Made by a program: the position numbers and the translations under genes. From Aequorivita echinoideorum (GTDB lineage: Bacteria; Bacteroidota; Bacteroidia; Flavobacteriales; Flavobacteriaceae), in the NCBI RefSeq assembly GCF_018476645.1, contig NZ_JAHCTB010000001.1:186001-250000 (forward strand): 64,000 nucleotides of DNA, written 5' to 3'. Position 1 is the stretch's first letter; every line of letters begins with the position of its first letter. The notes under the pieces are model-generated. The model made no database searches. It was not told the origin of the DNA and worked only from the letters and a program-made list of their open reading frames with translations. Of the stretch, positions 6,842 through 23,306 are shown piece after piece.

Positions 6842-6845
6842 AATA

Positions 6846-7403
6846 CTAAAAAATTAAGGGATAAATAAAATGTATCATTATTAAACCTCCAATAAAAAAG
6901 CCTATGACGGCAATAAGAGAGGGCAGCTGGAGATTGCTCAAACCTGAAATGGCGTGGCCAGAAGTACATCCGCCAGCATAACGAGCTCCAAAACCGACCA
7001 ATAAGCCACCAATTAAAAGGATGCCAATATTTAATGGGTTTGACAATGCATCTATAGAAAATATCTCTGGAGGAAGGTACGCACTACCAGCACTTGTGAT
7101 ATCATAATCCACTGCCAATTGTTCTGCAGTTTCAGGATTTATTTCTACAGTGTTATCGCTTAAATAATTTGAGGCAATAAAACCACCAATCATCGCACCT
7201 AGAACCACCATAAGATTCCAGCGTTCGGCTTTCCAATCGAACCTAAAAAAATCTGATGCTTTACCAGCTCCTACAGCTGCACAAGCAGTCCTTAAATTTG
7301 AAGACATTCCAAATTGTTTTCCAACAAAAAGAAGAATGAACATTACCAATGCAATCAATGGGCCTGAAATATACCACGGCCACGGTTCAAATATCCAATT
7401 CAT
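6846..7403 (-). CDS. YeeE/YedE family sulfur transporter half
   Basis: A 185-residue inner-membrane protein with about five hydrophobic segments. The motif GARYAGGCTSGHAISG near residue 145 holds the conserved Cys that relays sulfur in YeeE/YedE transporters, and a second Cys lies in the N-terminal SNLRTACAAVG. It forms a pair with the DUF6691 half immediately downstream. The start at 7401-7403 is preceded by a near-consensus -7 box and, 22 bases further, a perfect operator palindrome, so this is the first gene of a transcript controlled with the sulfide-oxidation genes. Confidence 0.9.
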   Translation of the reverse strand: MNWIFEPWPWYISGPLIALVMFILLFVGKQFGMSSNLRTACAAVGAGKASDFFRFDWKAERWNLMVVLGAMIGGFIASNYLSDNTVEINPETAEQLAVDYDITSAGSAYLPPEIFSIDALSNPLNIGILLIGGLLVGFGARYAGGCTSGHAISGLSNLQLPSLIAVIGFFIGGLIMIHFIYPLIF

Positions 7404-7420: not shown

Positions 7421-7464
7421 CAAATATGGTGCTTTCGCGAAAGCATTACAGTAACAAAGGTTAC
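7421..7464 (-). promoter_or_regulatory. Crp/Fnr-type operator plus -7 box of the YeeE/YedE operon
   Basis: Perfect palindrome GTAACAAAGGTTAC at 7451-7464. Reading leftward, a 22-base spacer leads to CATATTTG (7421-7428), one mismatch from TANNTTTG. The operator centre would be near -41.5. The spacer contains a second perfect palindrome, GCTTTCGCGAAAGC (7431-7444). The gene start is 18 bases beyond the box. Confidence 0.8.
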
Positions 7465-7517
7465 ATTAACAAGAATCTTATTTGCGTCCGGAGGATACTG
7501 TTTTTTTTATACGTTAA

Positions 7518-8555
7518 TTAATAGCTCGTATCATCTAATTTCACCTTGCCGTGAAAAGTTTTGTATAGAAATAGAAAATATCCTGCCAGTAATGGAGACC
7601 CAATCACTACAATCGTCAACATAATTCCCAAAGATTTTTGGGAGGATGCGGCGTTGTAAATTGTGACACTGTAATCAGGGTTTATAGTGGATGGCAATAA
7701 AACTGGGTAAAGTTGAAATGCCACCAGCATTAAAAGAAATGCCATAGTCAATGAAGAAAAAATTAAAGCATTTCCGTATTTTTTCTTTGAAACCAATCTA
7801 GGGACATTCGCTATGGCTAGAAAAGCTAGAATAGGAAGTGCAAAATATTCTGGATGCTCTTTAAATTTTTCTGTGACGCCTTGCACAAAAATCAATGTAT
7901 ATAGGGTCATCACGGAAAAACTTACAATGAAAAAAATCATTCCTTTTTTCAGTAAAAAAGTTAATCTGGCGTGCAAACGTCCTTCGGTTTTTAATAATAG
8001 AAAAATAGCACCTTGAGTCATAAAAAGCGCTAATGTTGTTAAACCTACCATAACGGCATAAGGGCTTAAGAAAGAAAAAAACAATCCTCCCTTATAACTA
8101 TGGTTCTCTCCTATTTCAATACCTTGAAGAATATTTGCTAAAACAACCCCCAGCAAAAATGATATTGATACGTTTGAAATAAAATAAACAATGTCCCACG
8201 TCTTACGCCACCACTTCATCTCCTCTGCGCTTCTAAATTTTATGGCTGAAGAACGCAATACCAAAAACATTAAAAAGAGCATAAAAGGCACATACATTGA
8301 AGATAACATTGTGGCATACATTACAGGAAACCCAGCAAATAATGCTCCGGCACCAATAATCAACCACACTTGATTGGCATCCCACAGTGGCCCAATTGCA
8401 TTGATAGCAATACGCCTGCTCAAGTCTTTTCTGAAAAATAAATGCCACGCTCCGGCACCGTAATCAAATCCTTCTAATATCGCATAGCCGGAAAACAACA
8501 AGCCCACTACTAAAAACCAAAGTGTTGGATAATCTATACCTAAAAAAGTTTCCAT
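7518..8555 (-). CDS. cydB: cytochrome bd ubiquinol/menaquinol oxidase subunit II
   Basis: A 345-residue inner-membrane protein with about nine transmembrane segments. The opening PTLWFLVVGLLFSGYAILEG and FDYGAGAWHLFF are typical of CydB, followed by IGPLWDANQVWLIIGAGALF. CydB pairs with CydA in the high-affinity terminal oxidase that reduces O2 to water. Bd oxidases are far less sensitive to sulfide than heme-copper oxidases, which fits the surrounding genes. It follows cydA by 10 bases. Length and motifs look intact. Confidence 0.95.
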   Translation of the reverse strand: METFLGIDYPTLWFLVVGLLFSGYAILEGFDYGAGAWHLFFRKDLSRRIAINAIGPLWDANQVWLIIGAGALFAGFPVMYATMLSSMYVPFMLFLMFLVLRSSAIKFRSAEEMKWWRKTWDIVYFISNVSISFLLGVVLANILQGIEIGENHSYKGGLFFSFLSPYAVMVGLTTLALFMTQGAIFLLLKTEGRLHARLTFLLKKGMIFFIVSFSVMTLYTLIFVQGVTEKFKEHPEYFALPILAFLAIANVPRLVSKKKYGNALIFSSLTMAFLLMLVAFQLYPVLLPSTINPDYSVTIYNAASSQKSLGIMLTIVVIGSPLLAGYFLFLYKTFHGKVKLDDTSY

Positions 8556-8565
8556 ACCAATGCGT

Positions 8566-9921
8566 TTATACGTATTTTAAAAATTCATCGGGATTTTTAG
8601 CTTCATCATAAGGCCCGTGCTTTATCTTTTTGTTGACAGAATAGATAAATAATAGGAAAAGTATGGTATAAACTACCAAAAACAATATCAATGAAAATAA
8701 TATTTGATTTGAAGACACCTCCTGCGAAAAGCCTTCATCTGTTCTTAAATGTCCATAAACAATCCAAGGCTGCCTTCCCATTTCCGCAGTAAACCAGCCC
8801 ACTTGATTTGCTATTTGCGGTAAAAGCACGGAAAACGCAAAAATCTTAAGTAGCCACTTTTTCTCAAACAGTCCACCTTTCCACCATAAATAACTGGCGT
8901 ATAATGTAAGGGCTATTAAAAGCATTCCAATGCTTATCATAATATGATAAAACTGGAAAACTGCATTCACCTGTCCGGGTCTGTCTTCCTTTTGAAATGC
9001 ATTTAATCCTGTTACGGGCGCTTCAAAATCTTGGTCAATCATAAAGGATAAACCGCCAGGAATCTTTAAACCCGTTACCTCTTGGGTTTTATCATTCACC
9101 CAACCAAACAAATATAAATCCGCCGAACCACTCTCTTCATAGTGACCTTCCATTGCAGCCAGTTTGGCAGGTTGGTGTTCAGCAACAACTTCTGCAGAAC
9201 GATGCCCTGAAAGTAATTGCGTCAAAGAAACAATTGTTGCTAAAGCTAATGCGATTTTAAATGCCTTTTTTGAAATTTCAATATATCTTCCCTTAAGCAG
9301 GTAATATGCGTGAACGCTCAAGACTAAAAATGCACCAGCCAAAAAAGCACCTTGCCAAACGTGAATAATTCTATCTACACTGGAAGGATTAAAAACCATT
9401 GCCCAAAAATCAGTTACTTCCGCTCGCGCGTTAAACCCTTCCCCTACTATATGGTAACCTGCAGGCGTTTGTTGCCAACTATTAGCCACCACAATCCAAA
9501 CCGCTGAAAACATAGAGCCTAAAAACACCCCTATGGTCGAAATGAAATGAACTTTTGGTGAAACCCTGTTCCACCCAAATAATAGAATCCCTAAAAAGGC
9601 ACTTTCCAAACCAAAAGCAAACAACCCTTCGGCAGCCAACGCGCTTCCAAAGATATCGCCAACATATCGAGAATACACAGACCAATTCGTGCCAAATTCG
9701 AATTCCATAATGATGCCAGTAGCCACGCCTATACCAAAAGTAATAGCGAATATTTTCAACCAAAAACGGGTTAAAATCTCATATTGCTTATTGCCTGTTT
9801 TCAGGTACATTCCTTCCATAAAAACCATAATCAATCCAAGACCAATACTCAAAGGCGGATAGATGTAGTGAAAGGCGATGGTAAATGCGAATTGTATTCT
9901 GGCAAGAATTTCTACATCCAT
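8566..9921 (-). CDS. cydA: cytochrome bd ubiquinol/menaquinol oxidase subunit I
   Basis: A 451-residue heme-carrying subunit of cytochrome bd oxidase. Conserved features: early ARIQFAFTIAFHYIYPPLS with the heme-ligand His, GTNWSVYSRYVGDIFGSALA, the Q-loop region around residues 255-300 in its short form, and GRQPWIVYGHLRTDEG from residue 382. About nine membrane segments. First gene of the cydAB operon; its promoter (9942-9985) carries an operator shared in form with the rest of the sulfur island, so oxygen reduction appears co-regulated with sulfide handling. Confidence 0.96.
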   Translation of the reverse strand: MDVEILARIQFAFTIAFHYIYPPLSIGLGLIMVFMEGMYLKTGNKQYEILTRFWLKIFAITFGIGVATGIIMEFEFGTNWSVYSRYVGDIFGSALAAEGLFAFGLESAFLGILLFGWNRVSPKVHFISTIGVFLGSMFSAVWIVVANSWQQTPAGYHIVGEGFNARAEVTDFWAMVFNPSSVDRIIHVWQGAFLAGAFLVLSVHAYYLLKGRYIEISKKAFKIALALATIVSLTQLLSGHRSAEVVAEHQPAKLAAMEGHYEESGSADLYLFGWVNDKTQEVTGLKIPGGLSFMIDQDFEAPVTGLNAFQKEDRPGQVNAVFQFYHIMISIGMLLIALTLYASYLWWKGGLFEKKWLLKIFAFSVLLPQIANQVGWFTAEMGRQPWIVYGHLRTDEGFSQEVSSNQILFSLILFLVVYTILFLLFIYSVNKKIKHGPYDEAKNPDEFLKYV

Positions 9922-9941
9922 AATATGTTAATATTTTGTTA

Positions 9942-9985
9942 CAAATTTAAAAAAATATGTTTCCAAGCTTTGTAACATAAGTAAC
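9942..9985 (-). promoter_or_regulatory. Crp/Fnr-type operator plus -7 box of cydAB
   Basis: Read leftward, the operator is GTTACTTATGTTAC (9972-9985), one mismatch from GTAAC-N4-GTTAC, then 22 bases, then a perfect -7 box TAAATTTG (9942-9949). The cydA start is 20 bases further on. The same intergenic region holds the divergent site at 10031-10074. Confidence 0.78.
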
Positions 9986-10030
9986 CTTATTGGGGATAAT
10001 ATCGATTCAAATTATATAAAATAGATATAA

Positions 10031-10074
10031 GTAACAAAGGTTACCAAGGGCAACTTTCATTTCTTATATTTTTG
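10031..10074 (+). promoter_or_regulatory. Crp/Fnr-type operator plus -7 box of the DoxX/DsrE/SoxB-like operon
   Basis: Perfect palindrome GTAACAAAGGTTAC (10031-10044), a 22-base spacer, and a perfect -7 box TATTTTTG (10067-10074), pointing rightward. Identical in sequence to the YeeE operator. It lies only 8 bases before the GTG start at 10083, so the messenger would have a very short leader. Confidence 0.78.
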
Positions 10075-10082
10075 TTCCAATC

Positions 10083-10445
10083 GTGAAAACTAAAACTCAC
10101 ATAGCAGTGTTTCTCACTTTCATCTTTATGGCAAAATTTCTTGCTATAGATGCCAATGGATTAAATATTTTATTCAGTGGAAGCGATATCACATTTGTAA
10201 AACCACATTGCAAAAAGAAAAATTCCGCAAAAAATTTAAAGTCCACCTCATCATTTTCAGAAGGGGATAATACAACTTCAGAATTTATCAGTTTAAGTGG
10301 TTTTTGTACTTCACAATTTCAGTTGGAGTTGTTCACTTGGGAGATAGTTAGCCCAAAGCCCATTGCAATTTTCAACGAGCATTTCACTTCCCACTTAAGT
10401 TATCGCTACTTGGATAACGATTCACCTCCTCCTCGATTGGCTTAA
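10083..10445 (+). CDS. small exported hypothetical protein
   Basis: A 120-residue protein, starting at GTG. The N-terminus (MKTKTHIAVFLTFIFMAKFLA) looks like a signal peptide or membrane anchor. It contains one early Cys (HCKKK) and a second (GFCTSQFQ), and ends in NDSPPPRLA, a tail that resembles small Bacteroidota proteins found beside metal-efflux and redox genes. I do not recognise a function. It is the first gene behind the operator at 10031-10074, and 128 bases separate it from doxX. A start at the ATG at 10128 would remove the signal peptide and is less likely. Confidence 0.6.
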   Translation: MKTKTHIAVFLTFIFMAKFLAIDANGLNILFSGSDITFVKPHCKKKNSAKNLKSTSSFSEGDNTTSEFISLSGFCTSQFQLELFTWEIVSPKPIAIFNEHFTSHLSYRYLDNDSPPPRLA

Positions 10446-10573
10446 ATACCATTACCTTTTTCAAAATAGGTTTCGGTGCTTCATTGCTATATGTTTGTGC
10501 GAAAGAAATTTCGCTGATTCAAATAAATTACAAAATGACACCGGAAAATTCAATCCCTTAAAACATATTTACA

Positions 10574-10972
10574 ATGACGACAAAAATTTTAGTAAGCCGT
10601 CGTTCCATTCAGCTATTGCGCGTATTGGTTAGCGGTATATTTCTCGTTGCGGGTTTTAATCACCTTATCAATATTAAAGAAACCGCCCAACGTATAGAAC
10701 AGGCCAGTTTTAAAGGTATCGCGCTTTTTTTTGGCGAACCTGAATGGCTTATAATTCTATCGGGAATTGCTATGCTTGTAGCTGGTTTTTTCTTCCTTAT
10801 AGGTTATAAAACCAAATGGGCGGCCATTGTATTGATGGCGGTATTAATCCCTATCACATTAACTATTCAAGTGGGCCAGATAACCACACTTGGTCCGTTA
10901 TTTAAAAACGTAGCAATTTTTGGTGGACTTATATTTTTTGTAATGAATGACACCAGTAACCTTTTAAAATAA
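10574..10972 (+). CDS. DoxX family membrane protein
   Basis: A 132-residue protein with four predicted transmembrane segments, typical of DoxX. The family core LVSGIFLVAGFNHLINI near the N-terminus and LFFGEPEWLIILSGIAMLVAG are recognisable. Relatives include the DoxD/DoxA subunits of thiosulfate:quinone oxidoreductase, but most DoxX proteins have no proven reaction. Here it sits with DsrE-like and SoxB-like genes, which supports a link to sulfur-compound oxidation. 60 bases to the next gene, same strand. Confidence 0.85.
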   Translation: MTTKILVSRRSIQLLRVLVSGIFLVAGFNHLINIKETAQRIEQASFKGIALFFGEPEWLIILSGIAMLVAGFFFLIGYKTKWAAIVLMAVLIPITLTIQVGQITTLGPLFKNVAIFGGLIFFVMNDTSNLLK

Positions 10973-11032
10973 ACAAAAATGAACCGAGCCTTTTGGCGAA
11001 CACATTTTACCAAATTATAAAAACAAATCAAA

Positions 11033-11455
11033 ATGAAAACATACATCTTTAGTTCAGTAATTTTAATGTTGACCCTTTTTAGTACAGCTAATATCCAAGC
11101 ACAACAAATTGACAACACCAAAAACAATTATGTGGTATTGACTAAAAAAGTGCCTCAACTACAGCCTATAATTCTAACGGCTGAATCTCTCAAGGCTGAA
11201 GAAGGCGATGCCTTCGGCGATTTTCAAGTTATTATCTGTGGCAAGGAAATAGGCGAGATTATTGATGCCGATAAAATAAATGACTTTATCACAAAAGCCG
11301 AAAAAGCTGGCGTGAAAATAATTGCCTGTGGCTTTTCACTCAATAAATTCAAAGTAGATAAAACCAAAGTCCCAAAAGAAATTGAGGTTGTTGAGAACGG
11401 AATTCTTTACAACTTTCAGCTTCAGAAAATAGGGTATAAAAGTATAAGTTTATGA
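11033..11455 (+). CDS. exported DsrE-like sulfur-relay family protein
   Basis: A 140-residue protein with a signal peptide (MKTYIFSSVILMLTLFSTANIQAQ), so periplasmic. The body (GDFQVIICGKEIGEII, FITKAEKAGVKIIACGFSL, KVPKEIEVVENGI) matches the DsrE/DsrF-like fold, with Cys in each of the first two motifs. Cytosolic DsrE proteins carry sulfur as persulfide; the exported Bacteroidota form is not characterised as far as I know. Its ATG-A stop overlaps the start of the SoxB-like gene by 4 bases, indicating translational coupling. Confidence 0.8.
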   Translation: MKTYIFSSVILMLTLFSTANIQAQQIDNTKNNYVVLTKKVPQLQPIILTAESLKAEEGDAFGDFQVIICGKEIGEIIDADKINDFITKAEKAGVKIIACGFSLNKFKVDKTKVPKEIEVVENGILYNFQLQKIGYKSISL

Positions 11456-13116
11456 TTATGATATCATTTAAAAAATATCTTGTAAAGGCTTTTTTAGTAA
11501 TGGGAATAATCTTCGGAATGGTTTCTTGTAAAACAGAAAAATCGAATGCAGTGGAAACTAATGAATCAGTTAAAGACACATTGAGTATAACGATATTACA
11601 GACAGCGGATATACACGGACAATTAGACACCCATCCTGAATTATTTTGGGAAAATGAAAAGGTAGTATTTAAAAACCGTGGCGGTCTTGCAAATATTAAA
11701 ACCCTTTTTGACCAAGAACGAGTGAAAAACCCAAATAGAACTATTATTGTAGATGGTGGCGACCTTATACAAGGTAGTGGTTATACTGCATTATCTGAAG
11801 GAAAAGTGATGACTGATATCATCAAAAATATGGGCTATGACGTCATCATTCCCGGCAACTGGGAAGTGGTTTACGGTAAAGATATGATGATGGAAGTAAT
11901 GAAAGGGTACAACACACAGGTCATTGTCCAAAATATGTATCACGATGACAATAAAGAACCCTTATTTTCAGCCTCTTGGGTTAAGGAAATCGAAGGAATA
12001 CGTATAGGGTTCATTGGTATAAACGACCCAGATGTGCCCATTAGACAAAACCCCATTTTTAGCAAAGGAATTGGCTTTAGTGGGCTGGATGATAATCTCA
12101 AGAAAATGGTTGACGATTTTAAGGTCAAAGAAAAAGTAGATGTTTTGTTTTTAATAACACATCTTGGAATTTTCAAACAAGTTGAACTTGCCAATAATTC
12201 TATATCAGAACACGCAGATTATATATTGGGTAACGACACCCACGAACGTGTGCGCAAACCCATACAAGGCAAATATGCAAAGGTTACCGAACCTGGCGCA
12301 TTCGGTTCTTTTGTAGGTAAGTTAACCTTGAATTTTGTGGATGGGAAATTGGTAGATGATGATTATGAACTCATTGATGTTGACCCAGAAGTTTTTCCGG
12401 CCAATGAAGAAATACAGAAACTTGTTGATAAGGAAAAAGCACCCTACAAAGATCATCTGGAAACCGTGATAGGATATACCGAGACACCCCTCTATCGCTA
12501 CCTAACAGTAGAGAACCCTATGGACAATATGATTACCGATGCAGCCCGTTGGAAGACAGGTGTAGATATTTCCATTTCAAACGGTTTTCGATTTGGTAAT
12601 CCCATCGTTCCTGAAAATGGAAAACCAGCACCCATTACAAGAGCCAATCTTTGGAATTTGCTTCCTGTAAACGAAAAGGTGAAAACCGGAAAGGCGAGCG
12701 GAAAGCAAATCAGAGATTGGTTGGAAAAGGAAATGCACAATGCCTTTGCACAAAATCCTACTGAACGTTTTGGCGGTTGGCTGGTGCGTTTTTCGGGTAT
12801 GGAAGTAAATTTTAATAGCCAAAATGAAAGAGGTAACCGTATTAACACAATAACCGTAAACGGCGAACCAATGCAAGATGATGAATATTACACCATTTCT
12901 GCCTGTGTCCGACCTGGTGACCCACTTGATAATTTGTGCAGGATGCCAAATGTGAAAGATGTTGAAGTAAAGGATTACACCATTCACGAGGTAGTGGAAG
13001 AATATTTAAAAGAAAACTCGCCAGTATCTCCAATATTAGAAGGAAGAGCCTATTGCGAATATCTTGGCGAATATTCCTTTTCAACTGTTCCCAAAACCGA
13101 TTATAAATTTCAATAA
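11452..13116 (+). CDS. SoxB-like metallophosphoesterase-fold lipoprotein (5'-nucleotidase superfamily)
   Basis: A 554-residue protein with a lipobox (MVSC, Cys26), so anchored in the periplasm. The N-terminal calcineurin-like domain has TADIHGQ (Asp53, His55), DGGDLIQG (Asp104) and LITHLG; the C-terminal domain has NGFRFGN and GGWLVRFSGMEVNF. Where 5'-nucleotidases have GNHE with a catalytic His, this protein has GNWE at 135-138. A Trp in that place is what I recall for SoxB, the thiosulfohydrolase that frees sulfate from SoxY-bound cysteine. Operon mates DsrE, DoxX and TlpA support sulfur chemistry, but no soxXA, soxYZ or soxCD is present here, so the true substrate is open. A nucleotidase remains possible. 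Confidence 0.82.
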   Translation: MIMISFKKYLVKAFLVMGIIFGMVSCKTEKSNAVETNESVKDTLSITILQTADIHGQLDTHPELFWENEKVVFKNRGGLANIKTLFDQERVKNPNRTIIVDGGDLIQGSGYTALSEGKVMTDIIKNMGYDVIIPGNWEVVYGKDMMMEVMKGYNTQVIVQNMYHDDNKEPLFSASWVKEIEGIRIGFIGINDPDVPIRQNPIFSKGIGFSGLDDNLKKMVDDFKVKEKVDVLFLITHLGIFKQVELANNSISEHADYILGNDTHERVRKPIQGKYAKVTEPGAFGSFVGKLTLNFVDGKLVDDDYELIDVDPEVFPANEEIQKLVDKEKAPYKDHLETVIGYTETPLYRYLTVENPMDNMITDAARWKTGVDISISNGFRFGNPIVPENGKPAPITRANLWNLLPVNEKVKTGKASGKQIRDWLEKEMHNAFAQNPTERFGGWLVRFSGMEVNFNSQNERGNRINTITVNGEPMQDDEYYTISACVRPGDPLDNLCRMPNVKDVEVKDYTIHEVVEEYLKENSPVSPILEGRAYCEYLGEYSFSTVPKTDYKFQ

Positions 13117-13124
13117 AAAAAAAT

Positions 13125-13721
13125 ATGGACAATAAGAAAAAGAAAACGTGGATTCAGTATGGCATTTTTGCTGTGGTGGTAATTTTCCTTTATGCAACCG
13201 GACTACATACCGAGGTCATTGGTTTTGCACAACGTGGGCTCTTGGCAACCGGATTAATGAACCCTGATGTGGAAGAGATTGCCGAGAACACAAGTGTTGA
13301 AAACAGAATTGTAGCAAAAGCAGATTATAATCTGGATTTAATAGATAAGAATGGAAAGATTGTACCGCTCAAAAAGTTCAAAGGAAAAGTCATATTTTTA
13401 AACTTCTGGGCAACTTGGTGCCCGCCTTGCGTAGCCGAAATGCCAAGTATTGAAAAATTGTACAGGAATATGGGTAACGAAGTAGAATTTGTAATGCTCT
13501 CTTTTGATAACAATTTTGAAACCGCTAAAGAGTATGTGAAGCGCAAAGAATATGATTTGCCCATATATTCTGCGGCCAGTACTATTCCTGATATGTATGA
13601 TTCAAATGCCTTGCCTACAACGTATGTTATTGACGCAAATGGAAATCTTGCATTGACACATCAAGGAATGGCTGATTACAATAATGAAGAATTCAAAGAA
13701 TTTCTGAAAAATTTGAAGTGA
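13125..13721 (+). CDS. TlpA/ResA-like thiol-disulfide oxidoreductase
   Basis: A 198-residue protein with one N-terminal transmembrane anchor (about residues 9-26) and a periplasmic thioredoxin domain. The active site is FWATWCPPC (Cys99, Cys102), and the cis-Pro segment ALPTTYVID lies downstream as expected. Family members reduce disulfides in periplasmic proteins, for example in cytochrome maturation or for Sox proteins (SoxW). It follows the SoxB-like gene by 8 bases and ends the operon, with a terminator immediately after. Confidence 0.9.
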   Translation: MDNKKKKTWIQYGIFAVVVIFLYATGLHTEVIGFAQRGLLATGLMNPDVEEIAENTSVENRIVAKADYNLDLIDKNGKIVPLKKFKGKVIFLNFWATWCPPCVAEMPSIEKLYRNMGNEVEFVMLSFDNNFETAKEYVKRKEYDLPIYSAASTIPDMYDSNALPTTYVIDANGNLALTHQGMADYNNEEFKEFLKNLK

Positions 13722-13738
13722 ATATATTGTCCAACAAA

Positions 13739-13776
13739 AAAACCGCATTGAATTTTGTTCTCGATGCGGTTTTCTT
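13739..13776 (+). terminator. intrinsic terminator after the tlpA-like gene
   Basis: Stem AACCGCATTGA (13741-13751) pairs with TCGATGCGGTT (13761-13771) apart from one G-T pair, followed by a T-rich run. It lies between convergent genes and has an A-run on the other side, so it can also end the leftward-pointing operon. Confidence 0.8.
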
Positions 13777-13793
13777 TTTAAAAGTTATAATCC

Positions 13794-14393
13794 CTATTTT
13801 ATTCCCACAAATCGAATTACTTCAGCTTTTCCCTTGTGATGATTACCTTCAGAAAGCTCAATGGCTTCCTCCTTTAATAATTTAAAGTCGAGTTGTGACA
13901 ATTCCGTTTTTATTTCCTCAATGGAAAATAACATTTCTTCATTTTTTGGACCACCCGAAGCATTTCCCAATTGTGCTTTTGCAAATGCTTCAAAAATAAC
14001 AAAACCACCCGGTTTTAAAAACTGCATCAAATGCAGATGCGCTTGGTTGCGTATTTCTGCCGGAAAATGGGCATAGCACAAGCCGATGGCATCAAATTTT
14101 ACATCGCTCTGAAATTCCAAAACATCTGAAATTTCATAGTGGATGTGAACTTGTCTTTCTTTGGCTAAAGCCAATGCTTTTTCTTTGCCATTTTCACTAA
14201 TATCAAAAGCAGTTACATCCCAGCCTTGGGAAGCGGCATATACCGCATTGCGACCTTCGCCTTCGGCAGGCAACAGAATACTGCCTGATTTTAATGTATC
14301 AATCTGTGCTTTAAAAAAATCATTTGGCTGTGTACCATAAATATATTCTTCGTTGCTGAAGCGTTCGTTCCAAAAATCTGCTGGATATTCCAT
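13794..14393 (-). CDS. class I SAM-dependent methyltransferase (TehB / thiopurine-type)
   Basis: A 199-residue cytosolic methyltransferase. The opening YPADFWNERFSNEEYIYG and the SAM-binding loop ILLPAEGEGRNAVYAA (about residues 38-53) match the TehB/thiopurine methyltransferase-like group, which methylate small soft nucleophiles such as thiols, selenium or tellurium compounds. It is the last gene of a five-gene leftward run that begins with a persulfide dioxygenase, 3 bases after its neighbour. A role in methylating a reduced sulfur compound is a plausible inference. Confidence 0.83.
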   Translation of the reverse strand: MEYPADFWNERFSNEEYIYGTQPNDFFKAQIDTLKSGSILLPAEGEGRNAVYAASQGWDVTAFDISENGKEKALALAKERQVHIHYEISDVLEFQSDVKFDAIGLCYAHFPAEIRNQAHLHLMQFLKPGGFVIFEAFAKAQLGNASGGPKNEEMLFSIEEIKTELSQLDFKLLKEEAIELSEGNHHKGKAEVIRFVGIK

Positions 14394-14396
14394 CTA

Positions 14397-15119: not shown

Positions 15120-15120
15120 T

Positions 15121-16434: not shown

Positions 16435-16448
16435 CTTATTTTGAATGG

Positions 16449-16898
16449 TTAAATAAACCTTCTCGTCCGTTTTTTATAATTCTGATAAGAAGGAAATTTT
16501 TGTAAAAGCAACTGCTCTTCATATTTCGATTTAAAATAGAACAGGATGCTCAACAATAATACAATCAACATTTTATACAATGATTCGCGATATAGCGCGT
16601 AACCCAGACCAGAGGAAATCAATGCCGTATATATGGGATGTCTTGCGATTGCGAAAGCACCATTGGTAATCAATGTACTGTTTGCTACTGGTGTGGGAAA
16701 TGGGGAAAGCTTCGTGTTGATTTGTAGCAAGGCTACCAAACCCAAAACCACACCCAACCCTACAATGACCAAACCCGAATAGCGTAACCATTCGGGTAGA
16801 TTCATTGGTACAAGGCGTATCTTTAATATGTAGGCGGCAAAAAGCAATAACTGGATGCCTACAAAAAGATAGTCCTTACTTGACTTCGGTACATTCAA
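16449..16898 (-). CDS. integral-membrane methyltransferase, isoprenylcysteine carboxyl methyltransferase-like
   Basis: A 149-residue protein with about four to five membrane segments. The C-terminal half has the family core: AIARHPIYTALI, then KSKYEEQLLLQKFPSYQNYKKRTRRFI, with the Glu and Tyr residues used in SAM binding. The family includes enzymes that methylate cysteine carboxylates and also membrane thiol methyltransferases. It overlaps the end of the persulfide dioxygenase gene by 4 bases (coupled translation). Substrate unknown. Confidence 0.82.
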   Translation of the reverse strand: MNVPKSSKDYLFVGIQLLLFAAYILKIRLVPMNLPEWLRYSGLVIVGLGVVLGLVALLQINTKLSPFPTPVANSTLITNGAFAIARHPIYTALISSGLGYALYRESLYKMLIVLLLSILFYFKSKYEEQLLLQKFPSYQNYKKRTRRFI

Positions 16899-18226
16899 TT
16901 TTTAAAATGTTCTATATCATCACTCAAATCATAAACCGTCACACCATTCAATTTTTTCTGAAGAATACTACTTCCAGCGGCGCTCCTATAACCACCAGCG
17001 CAATGCACTACGATAGGTTTGTCCGTCGGGATTTCATTTGCTGTGTCCCGAAGTTCATTCAGCGGATGTGAAATAGCACTATCAAAGAATTTGCCTTCTT
17101 CCACTTCGCTTGTGTTGCGAATGTCAACAATGGTGTAGTTGTCAGTATTTTTTTTGAAATCTTCCAAATCCAATGTTTCCGTTTTAACCAGATTTTCATC
17201 AGAAAGTGTAATGACTTTGTTTAGCAATTTTTCGTAACCGATTTTTGCCACACGGTGCAACATTTTGTCTTTGTTTTCTTTGCTGTCAATAACAAGTGTG
17301 AATGTTTCTTCCGGTTTTATAATGGAACCCAACCAAGTTTCAAATTTTGCATTTTCAGAAACGGCTTGTATGTTAAAACTTCCTTTTAAATGCCCTTTTT
17401 TAAAGGTTGCCTCATCCCGCATATCTACAATTAAACCTTCCGCTTTGGAATTTTCAGTAAAAGGGATTTTTTCAATGGATGGTTTTAAATCATCAGCTCC
17501 GGCTTTGTTCGTGTCCACATCAAAACCGAAATAATGTGGAATAAAGGGTTGCCCGTCAAGAATGGTATTCATAAATTCCTGCTTGGATTGCTTTTTGAAC
17601 GCCCAATTGCCCATACGTTCGTTTCCGAGTGTGCTGCTATTGGCTTCACTTAAATTCTTTCCGCAGAGTGAACCGGCTCCGTGGGCTGGATAAACCAAAG
17701 CATCGTCTGGCAAATCGTTGAACTTCGTAGTAATAGTTTCATACATCATTTCAGCCAATTCTTCACGCTTGGCTTTCATATTTCCTGCCTTTTCACGTAA
17801 ATCGGGGCGGCCAACATCGCCAATAAACAAGGTGTCACCAGTAAAAAGTGCCGTTTCATTTCCTTCGGTAGCCACAATGGTAATACTGTCGGGCGAGTGG
17901 CCTGGGGTGTTGATTGCTTTAAGGGTGACATTTCCCAACTGGATGCTATCGCCTTCATCAAAAGGATTGTGCGGATAATCAGCACCCAATTTTTCACTAT
18001 TATAAATGGTGGCACCTGTTTTTTTGTGAATTTCAAGATGCGAGCTCACAAAATCTGCGTGCGGGTGTGTTTCGATTACTGCCACAATTTCGGCATTGTT
18101 CGCTTTCGCAAAATCATAATACTGTTCGGGATTGCGCTCTGGGTCTATTACCGCCATTTTTCCATTGCTTACAATAGCATAGGAATAATGCGCGAGTGGT
18201 TTGTATTCAAATTGTTTGATATTCAT
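16895..18226 (-). CDS. persulfide dioxygenase-rhodanese fusion (MBL fold), copy 1
   Basis: A 443-residue cytosolic protein. Residues 1-240 are a metallo-beta-lactamase-fold domain with the metal motif ETHPHADF (His54, His56, Asp58) and TGDTLFIGDVGRPDL, as in ETHE1-type non-heme iron persulfide dioxygenases that turn glutathione-type persulfide into sulfite. Two rhodanese domains follow: the first (IVDMRDEATFKKGHLKG) lacks a Cys, the second has the active HCAGGYRS with Cys409. The start chosen is the ATG at 18224-18226; a longer frame from 18289 would run through the operator sites. First gene of the operon with methyltransferases and permease. Paralogue of the gene at 19892-21310. Confidence 0.9.
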   Translation of the reverse strand: MNIKQFEYKPLAHYSYAIVSNGKMAVIDPERNPEQYYDFAKANNAEIVAVIETHPHADFVSSHLEIHKKTGATIYNSEKLGADYPHNPFDEGDSIQLGNVTLKAINTPGHSPDSITIVATEGNETALFTGDTLFIGDVGRPDLREKAGNMKAKREELAEMMYETITTKFNDLPDDALVYPAHGAGSLCGKNLSEANSSTLGNERMGNWAFKKQSKQEFMNTILDGQPFIPHYFGFDVDTNKAGADDLKPSIEKIPFTENSKAEGLIVDMRDEATFKKGHLKGSFNIQAVSENAKFETWLGSIIKPEETFTLVIDSKENKDKMLHRVAKIGYEKLLNKVITLSDENLVKTETLDLEDFKKNTDNYTIVDIRNTSEVEEGKFFDSAISHPLNELRDTANEIPTDKPIVVHCAGGYRSAAGSSILQKKLNGVTVYDLSDDIEHFKN

Positions 18227-18243
18227 AATTTCTAAATTTTTTA

Positions 18244-18287
18244 TAAAAATAACAAAGGTTACAAACAATGGTTGTAACCTTTGATAC
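18244..18287 (-). promoter_or_regulatory. double Crp/Fnr-type operator plus -7 box of the dioxygenase 1 operon
   Basis: Read leftward, the upstream operator GTATCAAAGGTTAC (18274-18287, one mismatch) is followed after 22 bases by TATTTTTA (18244-18251, one mismatch to TANNTTTG), the fixed geometry seen at the other sites. A second copy at 18249-18262 (+ strand ATAACAAAGGTTAC) overlaps the -7 box, 25 bases centre to centre, and the two copies form a larger inverted repeat. The inner copy could let the same regulator repress at high levels. Confidence 0.72.
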
Positions 18288-18311
18288 ATTAATCAATCTT
18301 TTACGACTTCG

Positions 18312-19622
18312 CTATACGTCTTTGCCTTTCAACATTTTATTCCAATACAAATATGGAAGTCCATATTTTTTCAGCATCCACAAACGCCAGTGTTCTTTGG
18401 AACTATCTGAAATGAACATATTTTTCAATTTAGGATCTGGGATGAAATTTTGATCATAGTCAAATTCTGCCAAAACCATTTTCCCGTAATCGGTGACTAG
18501 CGGGCAAGAAGAATATCCGTTATAAGATTGCGGGCCAATTTTATTGGATTTAATCATAAGGCCAATATTATCAACTACAATAGGCACTTGCTTTCTGATT
18601 GCAGCACCGGTCTTGGCGGTTGGCAATCCTGCAACATCGCCAAGGCTAAAGATGTTGGCATATTTTTTATGTTGCATGGTGTGCTTATCAACATCTACCC
18701 ACCCCGTTTCATTTACCAAATTTGAATTTCTCACAAAATCTGGCGCTACACTTGGTGGTGCGGTGTGTAGCATATCATAGTGAATGCCATAGCGCTCACC
18801 GTCGCGGGAAACGTTTACATCTTTGTAATTGTACTGAAAAGAATCATCCAGCTTCAAATTGCTATTTCTGTCTTTCGGCAACACAACGCAGCCACCAATG
18901 CTTACGTCTTTCCCCAATTCATACCAAGCAATTTTCTTTTCACCATCTACAGCCACGAGTTTATGGTAGAACCGGACATTAATATCCTTTCTGTCAATAA
19001 CCTCCATCAATGTTTTTGCAATTTCCTTTACGCCGAAAATAACTGTACCACCCGTAGCAAAAATCACGTTGGTATTTTTTCGAACTCCACTTTTTCTAAA
19101 ATGACTTTCTGCCAAATACATGATTTTTTGAGGTGCACCACCGCATTTTATGGGTGTTGTAGGCTGTGTAAACAAAGCCGTTCCTCCTTTGAAATTTTTT
19201 ATAACGTTCCAGGTATGTTTTGGATTGGTGTAATTACTGCATACCACGCCTCTATCTATTGCTTCCCCAAGACCGGGAACCAAACTAAAATCGTATGCCA
19301 AACCTGGCGCAACCACGAGATAATCATAGGTTATATCACCAGATTTTGCCGTACTTACCATATTATTTTCAGCGTTAAAACCTGTGGCCTTATCTTTTAT
19401 CCATTCTGCACTTTTTGGCATAACATCTGCCATGGGCTTTCCAGTTTTATCATAATCATAAGTGCCAGCCCCTACGAGCGTCCAAGCAGGTTGATAATAG
19501 TGCGTGTCAGCCGGTTCAATAATCGCCACACTTTTGGAAATATTTTGTTTTAAAATTTGTGCTGCGGTCATTATTCCAGCGGTTCCCCCGCCTATGATAA
19601 GTATTTGATGATGTGTTGCCAT
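18312..19622 (-). CDS. sqr: sulfide:quinone oxidoreductase, type II-like
   Basis: A 436-residue flavoprotein. The N-terminal ILIIGGGTAGIMTAA binds FAD; the C-terminal IFSLGDVAGLPTAKTGAAIRKQ is the second FAD-binding motif of this family. The two cysteines expected for sulfide oxidation in type II enzymes are present: PIKCGGAPQKI (Cys160) and SSCPLVTDYG (Cys373). Reaction: sulfide plus quinone to persulfide sulfur plus quinol, at the cytosolic face of the membrane. It has its own promoter and operator, lies between the two dioxygenase genes, and its product persulfide is their substrate. Confidence 0.92.
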   Translation of the reverse strand: MATHHQILIIGGGTAGIMTAAQILKQNISKSVAIIEPADTHYYQPAWTLVGAGTYDYDKTGKPMADVMPKSAEWIKDKATGFNAENNMVSTAKSGDITYDYLVVAPGLAYDFSLVPGLGEAIDRGVVCSNYTNPKHTWNVIKNFKGGTALFTQPTTPIKCGGAPQKIMYLAESHFRKSGVRKNTNVIFATGGTVIFGVKEIAKTLMEVIDRKDINVRFYHKLVAVDGEKKIAWYELGKDVSIGGCVVLPKDRNSNLKLDDSFQYNYKDVNVSRDGERYGIHYDMLHTAPPSVAPDFVRNSNLVNETGWVDVDKHTMQHKKYANIFSLGDVAGLPTAKTGAAIRKQVPIVVDNIGLMIKSNKIGPQSYNGYSSCPLVTDYGKMVLAEFDYDQNFIPDPKLKNMFISDSSKEHWRLWMLKKYGLPYLYWNKMLKGKDV

Positions 19623-19646
19623 AATTTCGTTATTAGTATCAGCATT

Positions 19647-19690
19647 TGAAAATATAAATTAGAACTTAGTAATTGAGTAACATTTGTTAC
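19647..19690 (-). promoter_or_regulatory. Crp/Fnr-type operator plus probable -7 box of the sulfide:quinone oxidoreductase gene
   Basis: Perfect palindrome GTAACATTTGTTAC (19677-19690). At the fixed distance of 22 bases, reading leftward, is TATTTTCA (19647-19654), two mismatches from TANNTTTG. The operator is strong, the -7 box is the weakest of the set. Confidence 0.7.
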
Positions 19691-19839
19691 ATTTCTCGGA
19701 AAACAATTTCCAATTTTATGTTCTTAGCCAAAATTTATTACAATTCTTTTTTATGACAACTCTAAAAATTTACTTTAGAAATTTAACTTAGTGCAGTTGG
19801 AATTTTGAGGAAACCAGTATAAGGTATTTATTTTATTCT

Positions 19840-19868
19840 TAAAAAAAGCGACAATTACTCGTCGCTTT
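19840..19868 (-). terminator. intrinsic terminator after dioxygenase 2
   Basis: Perfect 8-bp stem AAAGCGAC / GTCGCTTT (19845-19852 and 19861-19868), with a run of seven T read leftward. It ends the TauE-dioxygenase 2 transcript, 24 bases after the stop, and isolates the separate sqr promoter. Confidence 0.8.
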
Positions 19869-19891
19869 AAATACCAAAAATATTAAAAGAA

Positions 19892-21310
19892 TTACTTGAA
19901 AGTTGATGGGCAAACATAAGCCGTAGTCTCCACTCCTGCTTCTTTAATTGCCTTGAAGCCACCTTGTATGTCAATTAAATTATGGATGCCGCGACTTTTT
20001 AAAATGGATGCCGCGATCATACTGCGATAGCCGCCAGCACAATGCACAAAAAAGGTCTCGTTTTTCGGATATTCTGCCAAATGATTATTTAAGGTAGACA
20101 AAGATGTGTTAGTTGCATTGAGTACATGTTCACTTTGAAATTCGGAAGGTTTTCTCACATCGAATACTTGAATATTTTTTTGAGTGTCCTCTTCAATTTG
20201 TTTGAATTCGCTTGCAGGAATAGATGTAATTGTATCATATTCCTTTGAAGCCTTTTTCCAAGCTTCAAAGCCGCCTTTCAAATAACCAACTGTATTATCA
20301 AAACCTACGCGGGATAATCGCGTAAGCACTTCTTCGATGCGGTCCTTATCCGAAACTAAAAGTATAGGTTGCTTTACATCTTTTATTAAATCTCCAACCC
20401 ACGGCGCAAAATCACCATCGATACCAATGAATATGGAACCGGGGATATGACCTTTAGCAAAGTGACTTTGATGGCGTACATCTAGAATTACAGCCCCTGT
20501 TTCATTGGCAACGGCTTCAAACTCGTTAGGACTAAAATTTCTTTTCCCTCTTTTCAATACATTCTCAATATTTTCATATCCTTCCTTATTCATTTTTACA
20601 TTCATTGGGAAATAAGCTGGTGGTGGCAAAAGACCGTCGATTACTTCCTTAATAAATTCTTCTTTGGTCATATCGGCACGCAGTGCATAATTCATCTCCT
20701 TTTGATGACCAAGGGTATCTACGGTTTCTTTCATCATATTTTTACCGCACGCAGAACCTGCGCCATGAGCCGGATAAACCATTACATTATCTTCCAATGG
20801 CATAATTTTGTTGCGCAAACTATCATATAATTTACCCGCCAGTTCTTCCTGTGTCATGTGTGCGGCTTTTTGAGCCAAGTCCGGGCGACCCACATCTCCT
20901 AAAAACAGGGTATCCCCTGTAAATATTGCGTGATCTATTCCCTTTTTATCCTTTAATAAATAGGTAGTACTTTCCATGGTATGACCTGGTGTGTGAAGCA
21001 CGACAAAAGTGAGTTCGCCCAGTGTAAATTTTTGACCGTCTTTTGCTGTGATAGCTTCAAAATTTGGATTGGCATTGGGCCCATAGATAATGGGTGCGCC
21101 GGTTTTCTCAGATAGCGTAACGTGACCCGAAACAAAGTCTGCATGAAAGTGTGTTTCAAAAATGTACTTAATTTTAGCACCGTTGGCATCAGCTTTGTCT
21201 AAATAGGGCTGCACTTCGCGCAATGGATCAATAATAGCCACTTCTCCTTGGCTTTCAATGTAATAAGCTCCCTGAGCCAAACATCCAGTATAGATTTGTT
21301 CAATTTTCAT
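19892..21310 (-). CDS. persulfide dioxygenase-rhodanese fusion (MBL fold), copy 2
   Basis: A 472-residue cytosolic protein with the same domain order as copy 1. The metal site is FETHFHADFVSGH (His54, His56, Asp58) with FTGDTLFLGDVGRPDL; the first rhodanese domain (ILDVRHQSHFAKGHIPG) has no active Cys, the second has HCAGGYRS with Cys424. The fusion lets one protein oxidise persulfide to sulfite and shuttle sulfur to or from thiols. It follows the TauE exporter by 62 bases and probably shares its promoter. Two paralogues in one cluster may differ in substrate persulfide. Confidence 0.9.
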   Translation of the reverse strand: MKIEQIYTGCLAQGAYYIESQGEVAIIDPLREVQPYLDKADANGAKIKYIFETHFHADFVSGHVTLSEKTGAPIIYGPNANPNFEAITAKDGQKFTLGELTFVVLHTPGHTMESTTYLLKDKKGIDHAIFTGDTLFLGDVGRPDLAQKAAHMTQEELAGKLYDSLRNKIMPLEDNVMVYPAHGAGSACGKNMMKETVDTLGHQKEMNYALRADMTKEEFIKEVIDGLLPPPAYFPMNVKMNKEGYENIENVLKRGKRNFSPNEFEAVANETGAVILDVRHQSHFAKGHIPGSIFIGIDGDFAPWVGDLIKDVKQPILLVSDKDRIEEVLTRLSRVGFDNTVGYLKGGFEAWKKASKEYDTITSIPASEFKQIEEDTQKNIQVFDVRKPSEFQSEHVLNATNTSLSTLNNHLAEYPKNETFFVHCAGGYRSMIAASILKSRGIHNLIDIQGGFKAIKEAGVETTAYVCPSTFK

Positions 21311-21372
21311 AATTTATACCATTTAAAATTTCTTCTTAAGAGAATAACATTTATTATTTAAACACTTAAATA

Positions 21373-22176
21373 TCACAAAGTGACTTCTTTGTAGATAATA
21401 TATATACCCATAATGAGTACGAACCAGCCAAATGCCTTTTTGAGCTTTTTGCCATCAATAAAATTATTTAGCCAGATACCTATAAATATTCCTATTACGG
21501 AAATTGAGGTAAATAGTATTAAAAAATACCAGTCTATGGAATAATTCTGTACATCTCCCAAAAACCCGATCAATGAGTTAATGGCAATTATAAAAAGAGA
21601 AGTGGCAACAGCATTTTTCATAGGCAATCTTGCCAAAAGGACCAATGCCGGAATGATTAAAAACCCTCCTCCTGCGCCAACCATACCAGTTATAATTCCT
21701 ATAAAAAAACCTTGTGCCATCAATAAGAAGTGATTCGACTTTTTTTCAGGAATTTTATTATCAAGTTTTTTGTTTCCATTGCGAATCATTGTAATGGAAG
21801 CCAAAAGCATTATGACAGCGAAGAATATCATAATGGCTAAATTTTTAGTAACTGTAAAATCGCCGATTTCAAAAAGTTGAAGTGGAATTGAAGGAATTAA
21901 ATAAGCCCTGGTTACATAAACAGCCGTAAAAGCCGGAATAGCGAAAATAATGGCAGTTTTAAAATTCACCCTGCCTTTCATCATATTTTTAAGAGCTCCC
22001 ACAAGGGAAGTTGTGCCAACTACAAATAATGAATACGCTGTAGCTATTACCGGATTGAACGAAAGCGCATAAACTAAAATGGGTACTGTAAGTATGGAAC
22101 CTCCGCCACCAATTAACCCTAAGACAAGGCCAATGAAGAGCGCCCCAAAGTATCCAAAGATTTCTAAAATATCCAT
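21373..22176 (-). CDS. TauE/SafE family sulfite exporter
   Basis: A 267-residue inner-membrane protein with about eight transmembrane segments in two repeats. Each half has the family's glycine-rich motif: GLIGGGGSILTVPILVYA near residue 20 and GMVGAGGGFLIIPALVLLA near residue 160. Known members export sulfite or sulfoacetate. It precedes a persulfide dioxygenase whose product is sulfite, so sulfite export is the natural reading. Its promoter overlaps the 3' end of the Crp/Fnr gene. Confidence 0.9.
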   Translation of the reverse strand: MDILEIFGYFGALFIGLVLGLIGGGGSILTVPILVYALSFNPVIATAYSLFVVGTTSLVGALKNMMKGRVNFKTAIIFAIPAFTAVYVTRAYLIPSIPLQLFEIGDFTVTKNLAIMIFFAVIMLLASITMIRNGNKKLDNKIPEKKSNHFLLMAQGFFIGIITGMVGAGGGFLIIPALVLLARLPMKNAVATSLFIIAINSLIGFLGDVQNYSIDWYFLILFTSISVIGIFIGIWLNNFIDGKKLKKAFGWFVLIMGIYIIYKEVTL

Positions 22177-22197
22177 TTAATTGTTTATTGAATGAAA

Positions 22198-22241
22198 CAA
22201 AATTAATGGACTTGCTGAATAGGTTTTGTAACCGATGTTAC
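22198..22241 (-). promoter_or_regulatory. Crp/Fnr-type operator plus -7 box of the TauE-dioxygenase 2 operon
   Basis: Perfect arms GTAAC-CGAT-GTTAC (22228-22241), then exactly 22 bases, then a perfect -7 box TAATTTTG (22198-22205) read leftward. The operator overlaps the last codons and stop of the Crp/Fnr gene. Confidence 0.8.
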
Positions 22242-22864
22242 AGGACTTCAATAAAACTGCGGTGCAGCTTTATTTTTTTTTCGTTTTCCATTTTTTTAAG
22301 TAGCCTGGAGATTACCACACGGCTCGTATGCAAGTCTGAAGCAATTTCTTTATGTGTTGTATAAATATGCTTACTATTTATAAGTCCAATTTTATTCTGG
22401 ATGTAATTTTCCAAACGTTCATCCATATTGTTGAATGCAATATTATCAATACTTTCCAGCATTTCCATCATTCTTGCATGATAGCTAGAAAATACGAAGT
22501 TTCGCCAAGATTTATACTTGCGGGACCATTCTTCCATCATCCCTACGGGCACCATAAGAAGTTTTATATCAGTTTCGGACACAGCGTGTATTTCACTTTT
22601 GGTATTGCCTATACAGCAACTCATTGTCATTGCACAGGTATTCCCTTTTTCAAGATGGTAAAGCAACAATTCATCGCCATCCCCGTCTGGTCGCATTATC
22701 TTGATGCTGCCCGACAACAACAAGGGTATTGATTTTATGTATTGGCCAGGTTTCATTAGGTCTTTTCCTTCGGGAAGTTCCATAAAAGTTCCCACTTGGT
22801 TGATTTCCTCCAAAAGTTCATTTTCAAAAAGAGAACCATAATATTTTTTAAGTTCTAGAATCAT
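22238..22864 (-). CDS. Crp/Fnr family transcriptional regulator of the sulfur island
   Basis: A 208-residue cytosolic regulator: cNMP-binding-type beta-barrel (about residues 15-110), long dimer helix (115-145) and a C-terminal winged helix-turn-helix. It lacks the N-terminal Cys cluster of oxygen-sensing FNR, but has three closely spaced cysteines in the barrel, Cys77, Cys83 and Cys84 (TCAMTMSCCIG). The recognition helix reads TSRVVISRLLKKME; Ser186 and Arg187 match FNR Ser212 and Arg213, but the FNR Glu209 position is Val183, consistent with a half-site different from TTGAT. It overlaps the DUF983 gene by 17 bases and both lie behind an operator, indicating autoregulation. Signal inferred to be sulfide, persulfide or redox; unproven. 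Confidence 0.92.
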   Translation of the reverse strand: MILELKKYYGSLFENELLEEINQVGTFMELPEGKDLMKPGQYIKSIPLLLSGSIKIMRPDGDGDELLLYHLEKGNTCAMTMSCCIGNTKSEIHAVSETDIKLLMVPVGMMEEWSRKYKSWRNFVFSSYHARMMEMLESIDNIAFNNMDERLENYIQNKIGLINSKHIYTTHKEIASDLHTSRVVISRLLKKMENEKKIKLHRSFIEVL

Positions 22865-23246
22865 TATTTACTTTTTTAGCAATTTCAGGATTGTATTTAA
22901 AAAAGAAATGAGCCCAAATAGATTTGGAAACCGCTCCAATATAAGGCATTAACAGAAACAATCCCAAAACTATATAACCAAATATGGCAAGAGGGTTTTC
23001 CGCCAAACCCGTGAAGTAAGTTATAATGAAAACTGCAATGGCAACTGCTGTGCCTACTGCGTACGAAACGTACATGGAGCCCGTATAAAAAGCTGGCTCT
23101 ATATGAAATTTTAGGCCGCACTTTGGGCATTTCTCCCGCACTCTATTCGTTTCTGAAAGTTTATATGGATTTGCCGTGAGTAAATTTCCTTGCCTGCATT
23201 GTGGGCATTTCAAAAATAAAGTGGAGTAGAGATATGATTTTTTCAA
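22848..23246 (-). CDS. DUF983 family membrane protein, copy 1
   Basis: A 132-residue protein with a zinc-ribbon-like N-terminus (CPQCRQG and CPKCGLKF, two CxxC pairs) and two C-terminal membrane segments. The central IEPAFYTGSMYVSYAVG is the family core. Function of DUF983 is unknown. It is the first gene of the transcript with the Crp/Fnr regulator (17-base overlap), under a perfect operator. A paralogue with the same layout is at 27398-27781 but has no such operator. Confidence 0.87.
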   Translation of the reverse strand: MKKSYLYSTLFLKCPQCRQGNLLTANPYKLSETNRVREKCPKCGLKFHIEPAFYTGSMYVSYAVGTAVAIAVFIITYFTGLAENPLAIFGYIVLGLFLLMPYIGAVSKSIWAHFFFKYNPEIAKKVNNDSRT

Positions 23247-23262
23247 AATGGAAAGTTTATTT

Positions 23263-23306
23263 CAAAAATACGTGAATGCGATTTGAAATTTGGTAACAGA
23301 TGTTAC
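23263..23306 (-). promoter_or_regulatory. Crp/Fnr-type operator plus -7 box of the DUF983-regulator operon (autoregulation)
   Basis: Perfect arms GTAAC-AGAT-GTTAC (23293-23306), 22 bases, then a perfect -7 box TATTTTTG (23263-23270) read leftward, 16 bases before the DUF983 start. Confidence 0.8.

Follow-up and report, generated by a model that had tools for sequence, protein, structure and literature searches.

A conserved operator with fixed promoter spacing appears to place sulfide-handling genes of Flavobacteriaceae under a Crp/Fnr-type regulator

SqrR, BigR, and the other known persulfide sensors control sulfide oxidation and sulfur dioxygenase genes, and they do so as repressors belonging to protein families other than Crp/Fnr. 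To our knowledge, few transcription factors of Bacteroidota have known binding sites, and among the open-access papers listed we found no published sulfide regulon of a Bacteroidota Crp/Fnr protein, as judged by titles and abstract openings. Here we describe a 16-kb sulfur island of Aequorivita echinoideorum, located in a window of 64,000 nucleotides (contig NZ_JAHCTB010000001.1, positions 186,001 to 250,000), that encodes a Crp/Fnr-type protein and presumed activator of 208 amino acids (P0001; 22238-22864, minus strand; assigned by Pfam, alignments, and a structure model). An earlier note on this DNA read the island as a Crp/Fnr regulon, and our sequence analysis supports that reading: the regulator is encoded in the island itself, and its motif, 22-base geometry, and sulfur targets are conserved. 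A conserved on-switch for sulfide-handling genes appears to be common to many flavobacteria and some other Bacteroidota.

The arrangement itself is already known; its place and gene set are new. Excerpts of the literature on the cyanobacterial nitrogen regulator NtcA (PMC3898017) describe GTAN8TAC sites at about -41.5; at the ilvG promoter, 22 nt separate the site from the -10 box. The sites in the island resemble those of NtcA in their half-sites, class II position, and the 22-nt spacing stated for that one promoter, and the alignments place R-V-x-x-x-R in the recognition helices of both proteins. NtcA differs in its nitrogen-control targets, its effector 2-oxoglutarate, and its TAN3T -10 box, in place of which we find TAnnTTTG. 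HcpR2, a nitrosative-stress regulator of Bacteroides, Clostridium, and Thermotogales, is likewise a member of the Crp/Fnr superfamily found in Bacteroidota, and the parts of its description consulted (PMC1274295) give the consensus GTAACnnnnGTTAC, a regulon limited to hcp in most listed groups, and, for the majority of its members, a proline at CRP position 181. PgRsp of Porphyromonas was modeled on 3DV8, the nearest solved structure to the island regulator; it is reported as a heme-binding redox regulator, and the word sulfide is absent from the main text of that paper (PMC6955866). The earlier note had set the half-site GTAAC apart from those of FNR and Crp. It does differ from both, but it is not new, as HcpR2 shares the consensus and NtcA the geometry.

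A pattern scan with box scoring recovered all seven GTAAC-N4-GTTAC palindromes listed in the earlier note, which we give without strand. Five have perfect arms: 7451-7464 (for the YeeE pair), 10031-10044 (for the DoxX-DsrE-SoxB-like operon), 19677-19690 (for sulfide:quinone oxidoreductase [SQR]), 22228-22241 (for TauE), and 23293-23306 (for the DUF983-regulator operon). Two have one mismatch: 9972-9985 (for cydAB) and 18274-18287 (for the second MBL/rhodanese gene). The accompanying statement that a -7 box lies exactly 22 bases away at all seven was slightly overstated. At this distance, four boxes are perfect (9942-9949, minus strand, TAAATTTG; 10067-10074, plus strand, TATTTTTG; 22198-22205, minus strand, TAATTTTG; and 23263-23270, minus strand, again TATTTTTG) and two have one mismatch (7421-7428, CATATTTG, and 18244-18251, TATTTTTA, both minus strand), but the SQR box (19647-19654, minus strand, TATTTTCA) has two. 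Summed over the seven palindromes, box matches reach 38 of 42 at offset 22, the runner-up among offsets 0 to 59 being 22. Not one of 20,000 random draws of positions between 26000 and 63000 of the window, a background that is not made up of promoters as such, reached 38. At the 18274 palindrome, a box at offset 13 equals the score of the box at 22. The whole window has 27 palindrome matches at two or fewer mismatches, whereas 100 shuffles averaged 16.6 and never exceeded 25. An eighth island palindrome, absent from the earlier list (18249-18262, one mismatch), lies 25 bases from the 18274 site and overlaps the -7 box of the same gene. The relatives' loci do not support a tandem operator at 18249/18274 as a conserved feature; palindrome pairs less than 120 bp apart are rare in them (6 pairs in the 80 loci described below).

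The earlier note had proposed scanning this genome and related Flavobacteriaceae against controls, and in such scans the composite of palindrome and box clusters in the island and is conserved in the family. In the 2.93-Mb genome of A. echinoideorum, the composite has seven matches at two or fewer mismatches, and all seven fall within the 16-kb island. A reversed-pattern control has nine genome matches at this threshold; it is therefore the clustering in the island, and not the count, that is unusual. At one or fewer mismatches, the island contains every one of the five composite matches, and the control has none. Perfect palindromes number nine genome-wide, of which five are in the island and the remaining four lie outside composite matches.

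For the wider family, we used 80 regulator-centered stretches of up to 20 kb each, chosen from the best-scoring regulator homologues listed. They contain 184 perfect palindromes, distributed over 71 of the 80 loci, whereas the next best of 60 distinct permutations of the half-site has 8 (median, 1). Enrichment is confined to a spacer of four bases, with 0 to 3 palindromes at the other spacers between 0 and 12. A box with at most one mismatch lies at exactly 22 bases from 165 of the 184 perfect palindromes, on both sides in 4 of them. With each palindrome counted in both orientations, 169 of 368 have such a box at offset 22, compared to 9 or fewer at every other offset from 5 to 59, and perfect boxes show the same precision (91 at 22, 3 at 21, and 5 at 23). 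In total, the 1.59 Mb of these loci hold 190 composites and no control match. A sequence logo drawn from sites already selected for the box has a T ahead of the palindrome, the two arms, a half-conserved G two bases behind the palindrome, and the box; in these preselected sites, only that G stands out between palindrome and box, and a full -33 TTG is absent. Loci of named relatives, some on contigs shared with the 80-locus set, gave 144 sites, with at least one in 49 of 52 loci; among these relatives, Galbibacter orientalis has the closest regulator (93% identity).

Across 249 family genomes, the composite is present in 202 of the 212 with a regulator match (E≤1e-15) and in 8 of the 37 without one, 17 of which were assigned to the latter group by elimination from the matches listed (Fisher p 3e-22, without correction for kinship). 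Composite matches total 882 in these genomes, compared to 76 for the reversed control.

The spacing also fixes the position of the palindrome in the promoter. The sigma-A box TAnnTTTG of Flavobacterium psychrophilum occupies -12 to -5 in the part of its description consulted (PMC9723704). A box beginning at -12 and a 22-base gap put the end of the palindrome at -35 and its center at -41.5. The earlier note's proposal of a class II position near -41.5 is thus supported by the published F. psychrophilum box position, from which (rather than from starts mapped here) the figure derives, together with the 22-base spacing at 165 of 184 palindromes.

We then considered which genes these sites precede, taking the first downstream gene for 206 sites in 72 loci. 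Most prominent are genes for persulfide-dioxygenase-like proteins of the PDO1 type (58 sites) and TauE (40), followed by YeeE (13), the regulator (12), SQR (12), DUF983 (11), PDO2-like proteins (8), the 120-amino-acid protein heading the DoxX operon (orf120; 3), and CydA (2). Further targets are a 1-Cys peroxiredoxin (12), an outer-membrane efflux protein (8), a sulfate permease (7), a fatty acid hydroxylase (4), and a cytochrome-c-like protein (4), these five clusters being named from one member each; four single genes and 8 sites without a gene found complete the set. Homologues were also scored for a site, defined as a palindrome with at most one mismatch within 160 bp and a box with at most one mismatch at 22. 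All 13 SQR homologues (more than 45% identity, start inside the locus) have one, and so do 11/11 DUF983, 2/2 orf120, 40/49 TauE, and 46/64 PDO1 homologues. The box lies at exactly 22 bases in 13 of 13 SQR homologues, although that of the window's SQR gene is poor. Off-island composite sites in three genomes have a 3-methyladenine glycosylase-type gene on one side, a label that comes from Pfam for one of these genomes, and on the other side a divergent gene judged thioredoxin-like by eye.

The regulator is a member of the Crp/Fnr superfamily, with a PF00027 score of 28.4 bits (cut-off 27.5) and a PF13545 score of 26.5 bits, just under the cut-off of 27. Its family profile matches CRP and NtcA structures, and the predicted fold agrees. 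It does not belong to either equivalog, scoring 45.2 bits with the NtcA model TIGR03697 (cut-off 244.95) and 34.9 bits with the cAMP-CRP model NF008732 (cut-off 266). In its own genome, the regulator is the sole match to itself at E≤1e-3; one other protein exceeds the cNMP_binding cut-off, and its recognition helix differs (TPESLSR). The recognition helix of the regulator, TSRVVISR, contains R182, V183, and R187. R182 and R187 occur in all rows aligned, comprising 81 rows from Flavobacteriaceae and 41 wider rows, each set counting the window's own regulator. Residue 183 is V in 80 of the 81 family rows and I in the other, and it divides the wider rows into 20 with V and 21 with E. This division coincides with the operator: V-type loci (I included) hold 195 perfect palindromes in 99 loci, whereas the 21 E-type loci hold none. 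Among the 40 wider loci alone, which come from the phylum set and include three from the family, a perfect palindrome is present in 10 of the 19 with V and in none of the 21 with E (Fisher p 1e-4), and several sites lie directly beside the regulator gene. In the alignments, the place of residue 183 holds V in NtcA and E in CRP, so the V/E contrast agrees with the role already described for this residue (PMC1274295). As an operator for the E183 proteins, we considered a GTGAC palindrome and rejected it, since only 2 perfect copies occur in the 21 loci. A few mixed GTAAC/GTCAC sites with a box at 22 are present in E183 loci (L162, L163, and others).

Beyond the family, 198 genomes of the phylum include 58 with the composite and 75 with the regulator; the 19 family members among them all carry the two together. 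A further 30 genomes belong to the same order or class but lie outside the family; here the composite is present in 15 of 23 with a regulator and 1 of 7 without (35 composite matches, compared to 12 for the control). In the remaining 149 genomes, it is present in 13 of 33 with a regulator, compared to 10 of the 116 that have none (p 9e-5).

In the functional logic that we propose, sulfide would be oxidized by SQR and the dioxygenases, sulfite exported by TauE, and thiosulfate carried by YeeE-type proteins, while cytochrome bd would resist sulfide. The motif, its geometry, the target genes, the conservation, and the way sites and regulator occur together are all observed. On this basis, the island is very probably the core regulon of one Crp/Fnr class II activator of sulfide oxidation and detoxification, namely the protein encoded at 22238-22864; direct binding, and activation as opposed to repression, are what we infer from these features. 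A dimer of the regulator would bind TGTAAC-N4-GTTAC centered at -41.5 and, as a class II factor, recruit sigma-A RNA polymerase to a -7 box that starts 22 bases past the palindrome. This would switch on the SQR-like enzyme, the persulfide-dioxygenase-like/rhodanese proteins, the TauE sulfite exporter, and the YeeE transporters, along with cytochrome bd and the DoxX-DsrE-SoxB-like operon. The regulator's own operon, of which the DUF983 gene is probably the first gene, would also be activated, and this positive feedback loop would sharpen the response. Such a regulon would give Bacteroidota a testable case with named targets and tie flavobacterial sulfide detoxification to one presumed activator. 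It also predicts further responsive promoters and offers, in the V/E183 contrast, a natural specificity experiment.

Several observations weigh against this interpretation. The palindrome alone, at one or fewer mismatches, occurs at 82 places in the A. echinoideorum genome and its reversed control at 288, making the palindrome the rarer of the two. At the SQR promoter, a better box (one mismatch) lies 20 bases from the palindrome instead of 22. The 80 loci are better-scoring matches among those listed, their related sequences are not independent, and the sets of genomes are themselves samples. Ten of the 212 family genomes with a regulator match are without the composite, five of them with weak matches (E≥1e-40) and five with good ones, and the eight regulator-less genomes that have the composite include one with six sites that is 84% complete. 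The site is often missing from homologues of PDO2 (present in 8/14), YeeE (12/29), and CydA (2/8). In the 149 genomes outside the class, composite and reversed control are about equally frequent (24 matches compared to 23, the control matches being counted by hand), so the case there is weak and consists in the association with the regulator. Finally, 17 of the 41 wider rows lack Cys83, one of the cysteines considered next, and in some of these cases PDO or TauE genes still adjoin the regulator.

We next considered how the regulator might perceive its signal. The [4Fe-4S] sensor of FNR has an N-terminal cysteine cluster. No such cluster is present in the island regulator, whose only cysteines are Cys77, Cys83, and Cys84; exactly three cysteines are found in 74 of the 81 family rows. 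Cys77 is present in 81/81 family and 41/41 wider rows, and Cys83 in 81/81 and 24/41. In an AlphaFold model, Cys77 lies just ahead of a short helix (residues 80 to 86) and Cys83-84 lie inside it; the pTM (predicted template modeling score) of 0.62 leaves the relative position of the domains uncertain. From the alignments and the CRP structure, we take this region to be where CRP holds cAMP. An alignment shows that 3DV8 (Eubacterium rectale) has cysteines at the places of both Cys77 and Cys83. From these sequence comparisons, Cys77 is a plausible persulfide sensor, and we infer that the regulator probably responds to a reactive sulfur species through Cys77, joined in this clade by Cys83/Cys84; reactive sulfur sensing is favored because the target genes are sulfur genes. 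A two-cysteine sensor universal to the whole family of proteins is not supported, given the loss of Cys83 in 17 of the 41 wider rows. A broader proposal, which we advance tentatively and give somewhat less than an even chance, is that a wide Bacteroidota subfamily of Crp/Fnr activators has turned the cAMP pocket into a cysteine persulfide sensor, with Cys77 reinforced by Cys83-Cys84 in Flavobacteriaceae and V/E183 setting the third base of the half-site. If the cysteine reading is true, Crp/Fnr activators join the known persulfide sensors; if the subfamily is as wide as proposed, it would be the Bacteroidota counterpart of SqrR, FisR, and CstR, working through activation at a fixed class II geometry.

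The most serious rival retains the same regulon and class II activator but has Cys77 hold a heme, the signal then being sulfide, nitric oxide (NO), carbon monoxide (CO), or the redox state at this heme and not the persulfidation of cysteines. Its seriousness comes from the protein PgRsp, modeled on 3DV8 and purified red with heme, and from CooA, which uses Cys75 as a heme ligand, both according to excerpts of PMC6955866. Residues 30-195 of the CooA chain 1ft9 align with profile positions 32-200, which would put Cys77 near CooA residue 75 if no indel precedes it, and Cys77 is invariant in the aligned rows even for proteins without Cys83/84 and recognized sulfur neighbors, as a cofactor ligand would be. 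However, no second ligand is known, and the target genes handle sulfur, not NO or CO. We regard a heme at Cys77 as possible, though on balance unlikely.

It is highly improbable that the regulator is instead an HcpR-type nitrosative-stress regulator with sulfur genes as secondary targets. The operators are the same: the perfect palindromes of the 80 loci match GTAACnnnnGTTAC, identical to the HcpR2 consensus given in the consulted part of PMC1274295. In the proteins, V, E, or once I stands at the place aligned with CRP position 181, where most HcpR2 members have proline. In a search with the family profile, P. gingivalis HcpR (9DAY, the only HcpR sequence compared) has an E value of 5e-9, far behind 3dv8 (4e-46) and CRP and NtcA (about 1e-22). 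This ranking and the residue at position 181 make HcpR orthology unlikely, and the absence of an hcp gene among 30 Pfam-scanned proteins from the window's first 32 kb also counts against it.

Equally doubtful is that the palindrome is a repression operator through which the protein blocks promoters until sulfide comes. The palindrome at 18249, lying over the -7 box of the PDO2 gene, would suit a repressor, but the fixed spacing places the palindromes at the position of a class II activator, no full -33 TTG stands between palindrome and box in the sites preselected for the box, and close pairs like that at 18249/18274 are rare in relatives. A last rival takes the composite for chance or for a promoter signature general to Bacteroidota, as the commonness of TAnnTTTG as a sigma-A -7 box and the control-level rarity of the composite outside the class might suggest. 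For the family it can be dismissed, given the controls with permuted half-sites, reversed patterns, other spacers, and other offsets, and given how the sites cluster in the window's own genome.

The genes of the presumed class II regulon are arranged as follows. Two Sulf_transp (YeeE/YedE-type) transporter halves (6428-7403, minus strand; Pfam) precede the genes for cytochrome bd oxidase subunits I and II (7518-9921, minus strand; Pfam) and a probable plus-strand operon (10083-13721; Pfam, NCBIfam, and open reading frames) encoding a 120-amino-acid protein and DoxX, DsrE-like, SoxB-like, and thioredoxin-like proteins, of which the DsrE-like protein scores below its cut-off and the SoxB-like protein below the curated NCBIfam cut-off for SoxB. 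The 120-amino-acid protein at the head of this operon (10083-10445) is without a Pfam match and accompanies the operon in several relatives. PDO2, an MBL-fold and rhodanese protein (16895-18226, minus strand; Pfam and open reading frames), was given the start at 18226 to stand downstream of its promoter; the longest open frame starts at 18289. It is followed by the SQR-like flavoprotein gene (18312-19622, minus strand), which resembles type III SQR, and by PDO1 (19892-21310, minus strand; Pfam and NCBIfam), a persulfide-dioxygenase-like protein of the same MBL-rhodanese architecture. PDO and SQR are labels by resemblance, as both MBL/rhodanese proteins and the SQR-like protein fall below the curated NCBIfam cut-offs. 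A window scan found no palindrome at two or fewer mismatches between PDO1 and the TauE/SafE sulfite exporter family gene (21373-22176, minus strand; Pfam), so PDO1 probably follows TauE. The DUF983 gene (22848-23246, minus strand; open reading frames and Pfam) has a TTG start and overlaps the start of the regulator.

Beside the YeeE pair, window 2761-6343 encodes an FdhF/YdeP-type molybdopterin oxidoreductase, FdhD, and a DUF7009 protein, with no palindrome at two or fewer mismatches in that interval. At the other end of the island, a tRNA-Met gene (23377-23450) lies between the promoter of the regulator operon and the next gene, whose product matches DUF748 weakly. At 22238-22241, the regulator gene's TAA stop codon sits within the GTAAC half of the TauE promoter palindrome, and the same overlap, with a palindrome of at most one mismatch, is found in 14 of 80 relatives.

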